A stretch of DNA of 32,290 nt from Prochloron sp. SulCav_FS08_3_32_3330 (lineage in GTDB: Bacteria > Cyanobacteriota > Cyanobacteriia > Cyanobacteriales > DYNF01), in NCBI GenBank assembly GCA_020721205.1, contig DYNF01000050.1, positions 1 to 32,290 of the forward strand, written 5' to 3'. The notes under the pieces are model-generated. The model did no database searches, was not told the DNA's origin, and saw only the letters and a list, made by a program, of their open reading frames with translations. Below are positions 11,475 through 13,797 of this stretch, piece by piece (within the stretch, counting starts at the first letter, position 1; each line of letters begins with the position of its first letter). The translations under genes and the position numbers were made by a program.

Positions 11475-11520
11475 TTTGCTTATGTAGCAACGGGTTGAAA
11501 CCTGTTGCTACATAAGCAAA
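11475..11520. repeat. Long dispersed hairpin (AACGGGTT family)
   Basis: A near-perfect hairpin of about 21 bp: TTTGCTTATGTAGCAAC..., ending ...GTTGCTACATAAGCAAA around a GTTGAAACC-type loop. The core repeats at 11598-11620 and 32264-32287. It lies 17 nt upstream of the TIGR04282 gene. No T-tract follows, so it is better read as a dispersed palindromic repeat than a terminator. Confidence 0.75.
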
Positions 11521-11570
11521 ACAGGCATACGCAGGTTAAATTTTTTAATATTAGTTAATATTTAACCTAA

Positions 11571-11590
11571 AAACCCGTGAAGACGGGTTT
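11571..11590. terminator. Hairpin terminator between divergent-tail genes
   Basis: AAACCCGT-GAAG-ACGGGTTT has an 8-bp stem and tetraloop and is followed by TATTT. It may end minus-strand transcription from the RHH-like gene (11626). A second AT-rich palindrome, GGTTAAAT...ATTTAACC, lies at about 11534-11566. Confidence 0.45.
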
Positions 11591-11597
11591 TATTTGG

Positions 11598-11620
11598 GTA
11601 GCAACGGGTTAAAATCCGTT
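11598..11620. repeat. Short AACGGGTT-family hairpin
   Basis: CAACGG-GTTAAAAT-CCGTTG, preceded by TAG; a diverged copy of the palindromes at 11475 and 32264. It abuts the 3' end of the RHH-like gene. Confidence 0.6.
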
Positions 11621-11625
11621 GAAAA

Positions 11626-11958
11626 TTATCTCAGACTATTAACGCTTAAGGGAACAAGATCGCCACTTAAAGTTAAACCTAAATACATCGGTTCATTTTC
11701 CTGTATCAATTCCCCTGTGAGAACACAACTTTCATCTTTTTCGGCGATCGCATCAATTCTGGCACGAATATCAAATTTAGAAAAATGGGGGCGATAATCC
11801 CCTGATTTTTGATGGACATAATTCCAGAGTATATCTCGAATTAATGCCTGATAACCTTGATTACCCGAAAGCTCTTTCAGTTTCTCCTTCAGGCTTCTTT
11901 CTAAACGGATACTGGTAACTTCCATTTGGGTTGTGGTCGAACGAGTTTGGGTTTCCAT
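11626..11958 (-). CDS. Small RHH-like conserved protein
   Basis: 110 aa from ATG 11958, chosen because GAGG lies about 10 nt upstream; the open frame reaches 12027 but the extra residues are implausible. Residues 12-45 (MEVTSIRLERSLKEKLKELSG then YQALIRDILWNYV) match a ribbon-helix-helix pattern: a short strand and two helices, as in CopG-type repressors. The C-terminal part (CVLTGELIQENEPMYLGLTLSGDLVPL) is a small beta-rich segment that I do not recognise; its CVLTGE...EPM phrase recalls zinc-ribbon-like cyanobacterial proteins but only one Cys is present. Likely a small DNA-binding regulator. It is transcribed away from the structured HNH leader. Confidence 0.6.
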   Translation of the reverse strand: METQTRSTTTQMEVTSIRLERSLKEKLKELSGNQGYQALIRDILWNYVHQKSGDYRPHFSKFDIRARIDAIAEKDESCVLTGELIQENEPMYLGLTLSGDLVPLSVNSLR

Positions 11959-12062
11959 AATTTTTTTCCTCAAAATAGTAGACATATTTATAATACAAGT
12001 GTAGTATAGAAAAGGAAAGTTAACCACGTTTAGTAAATCTAATTATTCTTATGACATCTTTA

Positions 12063-12427
12063 AACCTATCTCTCACCACCAACTACAGCGATGATTGTCA
12101 GTCAAACTGGCACGATCGCGCTATTGGTGGTTATTTTATAGGTTATTTTAGATTGGATAGAATAGAAACAAATGATCATCGGTCTCTGCTGGAGACAAAA
12201 CTTAATATTTTATTCAATTTTTCTAACTGTCATTATTCACCAATTAATCCAATCATTAGCCCAAAATTTAATAATTTAAAACTTAATTTTCTCAGGGGGA
12301 GGTCTCGGTTTAAACTAAAACTGTATCAGTTTTTATCAAAATTTAAACTGATTGTACTCACCTAAAATTAAATCTGATTTTAATTTTTCCCCCGCATCTT
12401 AATTTAAGAAGTGGGGAATTTTTTGTT
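12063..12427 (+). ncRNA. Candidate structured RNA or cis-regulatory leader of the HNH gene
   Basis: Three nested helices are visible: AACCTAT (12063-12069) with ATAGGTT (12138-12144), CCACCAA (12076-12082) with TTGGTGG (12124-12130), and GCGAT (12088-12092) with ATCGC (12115-12119). The apex is capped by CAGT-CAA-ACTG. GTCTC-TGCTG-GAGAC follows at 12182-12196. At 12317-12350 the segment CAGTTT can pair with either an upstream AAACTG or a downstream AAACTG. A terminator with a T-tract closes the unit on the plus strand only. It does not carry the signature sequences of RNase P RNA, tmRNA, SRP RNA or 6S RNA that I know. No convincing promoter was found, so the 5' end is a guess. Confidence 0.45.
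12389..12427 (+). terminator. Intrinsic terminator upstream of the HNH gene
   Basis: CCCCGCATCTTAA then TTAAGAAGTGGGG forms a stem of about 12 bp with one mismatch, followed by AATTTTTTG. The T-tract is on the plus side only. It precedes the HNH start by about 55 nt, so it either ends a separate RNA or acts as an attenuator. Confidence 0.7.
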
Positions 12428-12482
12428 TAATTCATTTTTGTAAGAGCTTCAACCTAATTCTAAAAACAAAAGGAGTTCAGCC

Positions 12483-13010
12483 GTGACCAGTCTAACGAAT
12501 ATTTTTAAACAATCTGTGGTGGTCTTTTCTAAAAATTACCTACCGATTGAACGAATTAATCTTAAACGAGCGATCATTCTGCTTGTCACCGATAAAGCTG
12601 AACCCGTTGATTTTCTCGCCGGAGAGATATTAGAAGTGCGATCGCCAAGTTTAATTTTACAAGTACCACCTTGTATTCGTTTAAAAATTGGTGGCTCAGA
12701 AAGGGGCTGGAAAGTTCCCCCTGTATCTCGCAAAGAGATTTTACGACGGGATAAACATCAATGTCAATATTGTGGAAGCAAAAAAAATCTGACTATTGAT
12801 CACGTTATTCCCCGTTCTAAAGGCGGAAAACACACTTGGGATAATGTCGTCATCGCTTGTGAGTATTGTAACTCCCATAAAGGAGATCGTTTTCTTCATC
12901 AAGTGGGAATGCACCTCAAAACTACGCCGAAAGCCCCCTGTCATCCTGCTGTCACCTTTGCTGAAAAATTTTGGCATGATCAACAGCAAAAGCAAGTTAA
13001 CCCTCTATAA
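12483..13010 (+). CDS. HNH endonuclease
   Basis: 175 aa starting at GTG with AGGAG 7 nt upstream. The N-terminal half (VVVFSKNYLPIERINLKRAI, then a KAEPVDF strand) is the small beta domain that precedes HNH in the widespread McrA-like bacterial family. The HNH module is complete: Cys94-x2-Cys97, Asp106-His107 in IDHVIPRSKGG, Asn121 in WDNVV, then Cys126-x2-Cys129 and His132. It should be a metal-dependent nuclease. The beta+HNH layout at about 175 aa also resembles the short IshB proteins of the IscB lineage, but there is no RuvC and no mobile-element ends are seen. A structured, terminator-capped stretch lies directly upstream, and a small gene follows after 16 nt. Substrate unknown. Confidence 0.85.
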   Translation: MTSLTNIFKQSVVVFSKNYLPIERINLKRAIILLVTDKAEPVDFLAGEILEVRSPSLILQVPPCIRLKIGGSERGWKVPPVSRKEILRRDKHQCQYCGSKKNLTIDHVIPRSKGGKHTWDNVVIACEYCNSHKGDRFLHQVGMHLKTTPKAPCHPAVTFAEKFWHDQQQKQVNPL

Positions 13011-13026
13011 CAGGAGAAGATCACAG

Positions 13027-13407
13027 ATGTTGAAATTAACCTATACAGAAAATGGCTTTTATTTAGAACTTTTAAATCAATCTCTGGAAAAATGGTTAAA
13101 AAACCGTTTATGGGTGTCTGTAAGGGCGGCTACTAGCTTTTTTATTGAACCCAGTTCAGCTTCTTTTTTAATTCCGGCTGATTTAAAGGGCTTAAAACCT
13201 TTAGAAAAAGTACAATCTGAAAATGGTGATCTAATGGCGATCGCTTTAGCTGATGAGGATTTTGTCGAAATTAGTCTTCAAGGAAATTGGATCGTAGGGG
13301 ATCCCCATAGTGAAGAAGGAATTTTTGTCACAAATTTAACGCAAAAAGCTGAATTTTTCCTCTTTAAATTATGGCAAGAAGCTCAAAATACACCGATTGA
13401 ATTTTAA
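13027..13407 (+). CDS. Small conserved hypothetical protein behind the HNH gene
   Basis: 126 aa from ATG 13027, with AGGAGA about 9 nt upstream; the frame extends upstream inside the HNH gene but that part is a shadow. Alpha/beta, acidic and soluble: LTYTENGFYLELL, then VSVRAATSFFIEPSSASFLIPADL, MAIALADEDFVEISLQG and a final helix EFFLFKLWQEA. No catalytic motif or signal peptide is evident. It is 16 nt behind the HNH gene and probably co-transcribed, so it may modulate or accompany the nuclease. I recall similar proteins only from cyanobacteria and assign no function. Confidence 0.65.
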   Translation: MLKLTYTENGFYLELLNQSLEKWLKNRLWVSVRAATSFFIEPSSASFLIPADLKGLKPLEKVQSENGDLMAIALADEDFVEISLQGNWIVGDPHSEEGIFVTNLTQKAEFFLFKLWQEAQNTPIEF

Positions 13408-13430: not shown

Positions 13431-13489
13431 TATCAATACTTTAAGGGATAACTGTGAGTATTCATCTCGCTTTGAAATAAATTTCAAAG
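13431..13489. repeat. 41-bp dispersed repeat, copy 1, with palindrome
   Basis: TATCAATACTTTAAGGGATA... to CATCTCGCT (13431-13471), directly followed by the palindrome CTTTGAAAT-AA-ATTTCAAAG (13470-13489). The repeat itself contains AATACT and its complement AGTATT. It is 38/41 identical to copy 2. Confidence 0.85.
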
Positions 13490-13545
13490 CTAATAGCAAA
13501 AGTCTGCTAAAGCGACTAAGAAATTATATTTTAAACCCGACTTTG

Positions 13546-13740: not shown

Positions 13741-13797
13741 TATCAATACTTTAATGGATTAATGTGAGTATTCATCTCGCTCTTAAATCCATTTAAG
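13741..13797. repeat. 41-bp dispersed repeat, copy 2, with palindrome
   Basis: 13741-13781 matches copy 1 at 38 of 41 positions. It is again followed by a palindrome, this time CTTAAAT-CC-ATTTAAG (13782-13797), which contains the stop codon of the PD-(D/E)XK-like gene. Confidence 0.85.

Follow-up and report, generated by a model that had tools for sequence, protein, structure and literature searches.

Introduction

The closest known system to the locus described here, and a proven precedent for an attenuator, is the bmrB leader of bmrCD in Bacillus subtilis, where a repressor is combined with a terminator and with a small open reading frame (ORF) that has alternative stem-loops; the system responds to protein-synthesis drugs (PMC4191407). 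The toiL upstream ORF (uORF) of topAI-yjhQ in Escherichia coli senses several classes of ribosome-targeting antibiotics (PMC12121999). In Anabaena PCC 7120, all0854 encodes TrcR, a ribbon-helix-helix (RHH) repressor of a translational-stress regulon that is induced by elongation inhibitors (Wang et al., 2023; PMC10272220). The footprint of TrcR at trcR runs from -53 to -28 and encloses the motif ATACTACACTTGTATTAC, and loss of TrcR increases expression of asr0855 (9.2-fold), alr0856, which encodes an HNH protein (7.2-fold), and alr0857 (8.5-fold); chloramphenicol induces asr0855 and alr0857 (PMC10272220). According to these published data, asr0855 is both transcribed and induced; the authors add that the signalling acting on TrcR has yet to be worked out (Wang et al., 2023; PMC10272220). 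Another HNH gene, all8564, also belongs to the published TrcR regulon. The asr0855 product (83 residues) has been named among the signature proteins of a cyanobacterial clade (PMC2823733). In the regulon paper asr0855 is a hypothetical gene, and searching the text of the paper for attenuation or for a leader returned no mention of either (PMC10272220). Lastly, a structured RNA directly 5' of an HNH gene is the arrangement known for the HEARO/OMEGA RNA with IscB.

Here, we analyzed a DNA stretch of 32,290 nucleotides from Prochloron sp. (hereafter, the window) that carries the gene order of the TrcR regulon of Anabaena (trcR-asr0855-alr0856-alr0857) together with the same operator. When compared to bmrB-bmrCD, this locus is in a different phylum and involves different genes, its terminator follows the ORF rather than lying within it, and its ORF is longer, is structured in its 5' half, and encodes a peptide that is nearly free to vary; dependence on ribosomes is what we infer here. 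Unlike toiL, whose output is repression of translation and Rho-dependent termination (PMC12121999), the locus has an intrinsic terminator. It also differs from HEARO/OMEGA loci in that its leader has no HEARO match, contains an ORF, and outlives the nuclease gene, which in turn lacks RuvC. The leader is likely to be a translation-sensing (ribosome-controlled) transcription attenuator that operates beneath TrcR, a reading to which we assign a probability of about 0.7.

Results and Discussion

Organization of the Locus and Its Repressor

The stretch upstream of the HNH gene is the 5' leader of an operon comprising the leader ORF, the HNH gene, and an alr0857-family gene, and it is divergent from the gene for a TrcR-type repressor. 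The features of the locus are as follows.

11626-11958, minus strand: divergent RHH gene, counterpart of trcR (all0854) by gene order and operator position; an ORF
11979-12007, plus strand: leader promoter TAGACA-N17-TAGTAT; same promoter layout in most orthologs
11990-12007, unstranded: TrcR box ATAATACAAGTGTAGTAT; 17/18 of the published motif, as its reverse complement
12051-12365, plus strand: leader ORF of 104 codons, most likely the counterpart of asr0855
12063-12144, plus strand: 5' nested hairpin of three helices within the leader ORF, from folding and the synonymous-shuffle test
12286-12428, plus strand: hit of covariance model R1, which describes the 3' module (E 1.5e-6, E-values of this model being rough)
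12294-12302, plus strand: region 1 (AGGGGGAGG; AGCGGGAGG in most species), predicted antiterminator strand within the ORF
12301-12362, plus strand: hairpin A (GGU...ACC), enlarged in the Prochloron window and ending at the stop codon
12390-12424, plus strand: intrinsic terminator, with a 5' arm that has two possible partners, region 1 and the 3' arm
12483-13010, plus strand: HNH endonuclease gene, counterpart of alr0856, without RuvC
13027-13407, plus strand: alr0857-family gene, function unassigned (NF045647 at 149.8 bits)

The RHH protein of the window had no match in Pfam or NCBIfam. Its gene is nonetheless identifiable as the putative trcR counterpart because both the order of the four genes and the position of the operator agree with those published (PMC10272220). 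The TrcR box is 32-49 bp from the start of the RHH gene and overlies the leader promoter, from which transcription would start near 12014. A TrcR box with at most four mismatches was identified in 89 of 102 leaders. De-repression without TrcR is known for the Anabaena counterpart only (PMC10272220). A search of the phage collection with this protein detected no phage copy of TrcR.

Among the approximately 120 orthologous loci examined, the layout is nearly uniform: the RHH gene points away from a TGGACA-N17-TAGTAT-type promoter, which is followed by an ORF, a terminator (C-rich/G-rich), and the HNH start. The alr0857-family gene was present in 43 of 60 representative genomes of the order; in the window, as in most of these 43 genomes, it is located 3' of the HNH gene. 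Two sets of repeats flank these genes in the window: an imperfect direct repeat of ~50 bp (TATCAATACTTTAA.GGAT..TGTGAGTATTCATCTCGCT) 3' of the operon (13439-13490 and 13741-13793) and, downstream of trcR (11480-11640), AT-rich palindromic repeats (TAGCAACGGGTTGAAACCTGTTGCTA, with another, partial copy).

Conservation of the Leader Reading Frame

The initial annotation held that no protein explains the stretch. This proved incorrect, as a 104-aa ORF (12051-12365) spans almost the whole stretch and has homologs among leader ORFs throughout the order; the in-frame homology includes the window (MTSLNLSLTTNY...NW..RAIGGYF versus MSLHLTLST...DW..AAMSVDF). Several of the leader ORFs are 82-83 codons long, matching the size of asr0855. 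Since this size and the TrcR box agree with Anabaena, as does the gene order, the leader ORF is most likely the counterpart of asr0855.

In all 102 leaders with a recognized region 1, the reading frame crosses this conserved AGCGGGAGGUAC element, and in nearly all of them the stop codon is 14-51 nt past the start of region 1. Dinucleotide shuffles of 56 representatives predict only 1.5 of 56 frames to be open, and 4.5 of 56 is the fair bound over three frames, given that frames were chosen for openness over region 1. Amino acids, in turn, are weakly constrained: the median dN/dS was 0.62 (185 non-independent pairs), with third positions evolving only slightly faster. Because frames are open in 102/102 leaders but amino-acid constraint is weak, it is the reading frame rather than the peptide sequence that is kept. 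In three leaders (L009, L012, and L027), the C-terminal frame is shifted or lost and the nucleotides of region 1 are unchanged.

RNA Structure and the Predicted Terminator Switch

Three nested complementary segments had been described in the initial annotation and their symmetry judged unlikely by chance, and both statements were borne out. The segments are present as three nested helices in the minimum-free-energy fold; positions 12050-12160 fold at -33.9 kcal/mol (z -4.7; 0 of 200 shuffles as good) and positions 12040-12430 at -91.9 (z -4.95; 0 of 100). Structure 5' of region 1 also exceeds that of synonymous-codon shuffles, which preserve the peptide and destroy the structure, with z -3.84 in the window and a mean z of -1.99 among 57 leaders, 47% of which were below -2.33. 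Most folded leaders share a 5' architecture in which an apical hairpin is preceded by an inner helix (CUCCAC:GUGGAG) and an outer one. Pairing of the inner helix amounts to 95% across 28 species, with a single compensatory pair; the register of the outer helix shifts between species, making column-by-column counting impossible.

The plus-strand terminator that had been noted ahead of the GTG of the HNH gene is likewise present (stem 12390-12401/12405-12416, followed by AATTTTTT), with about 59 nt separating its end from the GTG at 12483. In many species the terminator lies directly 5' of the HNH start, leaving little room for another promoter; some species have a weak U-tract. Region 1 almost duplicates the 3' arm of the terminator and can pair with the 5' arm to form helix P1. 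In models of partial transcripts that end before the 3' arm, region 1 holds the 5' arm in 47 of 47 cases (mean 0.94), and this pairing drops to 0.04 when the upstream sequence is shuffled. In the full transcript, the terminator is favored (0.92 versus 0.02 for P1), and antitermination must therefore be kinetic or need help.

Related genomes contain compensatory changes in P1, hairpin A, the terminator, and the inner 5' helix, such that the base-pair covariation proposed earlier as a check was found. Among 70 aligned 3' modules (alignment A2), the paired fraction is 88% for P1 and 92% for both hairpin A and the terminator. Cells with both sides changed exceed those of all 500 shuffles in both covariation tests; the cells counted are not independent events. 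Four pairs of hairpin A (A2 positions 19-40, 20-39, 21-38, and 22-37) change on both sides, and region 1 has changed together with both terminator arms in four leaders (L098, L114, L115, and L128). RNAalifold alone recovers only hairpin A and the terminator; P1 was counted separately because one arm is common to P1 and the terminator. The GCGGGAGGUAC core is nearly invariant, and a few orthologs (L029, L031, L169, and L172) have no recognizable region 1.

Collectively, three elements of a ribosome-mediated transcription attenuator are found at this locus: a leader ORF upstream, an intrinsic terminator before the gene, and an antiterminator that shares an arm with the terminator. The folding models indicate that these form a kinetic terminator/antiterminator pair with the antiterminator strand inside the reading frame. 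The attenuator option, which the initial annotation had listed among others, is thus supported by the alternative pairing of region 1 and the terminator and by the conserved frame.

These data also bear on whether the small ORF might instead encode a functional, fast-evolving stress-response protein (i.e., asr0855 as a real protein), with the 3' RNA acting as a strong terminator and its alternative pairing being incidental. The open frame in 102/102 leaders, a dN/dS below 1, and the listing of asr0855 as a clade signature protein (PMC2823733) would all fit such a protein. However, structure beyond that of synonymous shuffles, the pairing of region 1 with covariation across three strands, and the retention of nucleotides in the three leaders that have lost the C-terminal frame all argue against it, and we consider this explanation unlikely. 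The leader also puts in question the annotation of asr0855-type genes as signature proteins, as the sequence of these genes drifts and the RNA is kept.

Distribution of the Leader and Its Association With the Operon

Clear orthologs of the HNH protein (about 56-72% identity) were identified in 157 of the 281 genomes that represent the order; a genome from another order of the class has one as well. When the covariance model R1, which was built without the window sequence, was applied to 60 genomes, nearly all hits were at the HNH locus. Two further hits, on contig 195 of the window's own genome (L189) and inside a coding gene (L190), were rejected as false positives based on sequence and context. 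The possibility that the leader is a repeat or mobile element was also rejected, as a DNA search found no second copy in its own genome; a DNA search of 291 genomes yielded short, low-complexity matches only.

Synteny with the HNH gene, put forward earlier as a test, is the rule and yet is not obligatory. Three genomes (G057, G043, and G018; loci L185, L187, and L188) have no HNH ortholog and keep the RHH gene, leader, terminator, and alr0857 in order, and at a second locus of another genome (G004; L186) the leader is located beside a degraded HNH gene and an intact alr0857. Because the leader outlasts loss of the HNH gene in this manner, it is part of the operon rather than a companion of the nuclease.

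Additional copies of the HNH gene with their own leader (TrcR-like box, ORF, region 1, and terminator) were observed at several loci (L221, L100, L106, L107, L133, L134, L136, and L171), mostly without an adjacent trcR. One of these (L221) is on plasmid pNOS7524.01 of Nostoc sp. PCC 7524 (1450-1800).

The persistence of the leader with alr0857 after HNH loss, its strong and conserved structure, and its nearly invariant core are also what might be expected if the leader were an attenuator or riboswitch for some other ligand (a metabolite, a tRNA, or a protein such as the alr0857 product), with translation of the ORF being secondary. This is a still less probable explanation than a functional small protein: the frame is kept despite extreme sequence drift, the leader has no match among the known riboswitches in Rfam, and the regulon responds to translation inhibitors (PMC10272220).

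Proposed Mechanism of Attenuation

We infer that the leader attenuates transcription, that ribosomes provide the signal, and in which direction the switch works. As RNA polymerase makes the leader, region 1 would pair with the terminator 5' arm while the 3' arm is not yet transcribed. The antiterminator P1 would thereby form first and delay the terminator, allowing polymerase to reach the HNH and alr0857 genes. A ribosome moving at normal speed would arrive at the end of the ORF and cover region 1, in which case the terminator would form and transcription would stop. If ribosomes were stalled or lagging within the roughly 80-100 structured codons, or were absent, region 1 would be free and the operon would be read. 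The cell thus probably turns the operon on when protein synthesis stalls, with TrcR setting initiation and the leader providing a second, direct test of translation elongation. The switch may also work in the opposite direction, as in most species a ribosome resting on the stop codon would mask hairpin A but leave region 1 free. Any attenuation would be incomplete, because alr0856 and alr0857 are already up 7-8 fold in unstressed cells that lack TrcR (PMC10272220).

We tentatively extend the attenuator reading, at somewhat less than even odds, to a general sensor of translation speed. In such a sensor, a long structured frame whose peptide hardly matters would make the ribosome a timer, such that any elongation stress, rather than a single codon or drug, would open the terminator; the device would be conserved across cyanobacteria and copied onto plasmids. 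If so, there would be a direct link, beneath TrcR, from stalled translation to an HNH nuclease and to the alr0857 protein. The leader is a candidate for a second, direct stress sensor in the operon adjoining trcR, and its covarying strands supply precise mutations for testing.

The HNH Protein and the Question of a Guide RNA

The leader had no covariance match to HEARO, even at permissive thresholds, and no gathering-score match to any Rfam family, including the cyanobacterial sRNAs; the Rfam scan proposed earlier thus returned no family. NsiR1 scored 18.6 bits (39 are needed) over the terminator region only. No description of the leader was found in the mainly open-access literature searched (IshB, HEARO, or attenuators in cyanobacteria).

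An RNA-guided HNH system, in which the structured RNA would be the partner of the HNH protein as in IscB/HEARO, had been raised in the initial annotation as an RNA-nuclease pair; despite the adjacency of the genes, an HNH domain nearest to those of IscB and Cas9, and an N-terminus that aligns at the right place with the PLMP segment of TbaIscB (very weakly, at 1.3 bits), this is highly improbable and was rejected, given the missing HEARO match, the survival of the RNA in three genomes without HNH and beside a remnant elsewhere, and the conserved ORF and terminator switch that it contains. Unlike the HEARO/OMEGA RNA, the leader is not obligately paired with a nuclease gene, and the locus is a clear example of an RNA next to an HNH nuclease that serves as a regulatory leader rather than as a guide.

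The HNH family (L035, L037, L040, and L042; alignment A1) is also present in Neomarinimicrobia and other phyla, and its N-terminus carries a conserved motif (SVxVxNxxYxP...RAIxL) at a position resembling that of the PLMP segment in IscB. Judging from sequence, the family may be linked to IshB-type proteins (PLMP and HNH, without RuvC). Nearly all 60 genomes of the order, also those from which the operon HNH is absent, encode another HNH paralog that is more distant (about 40% identity and about 90-100 bits).
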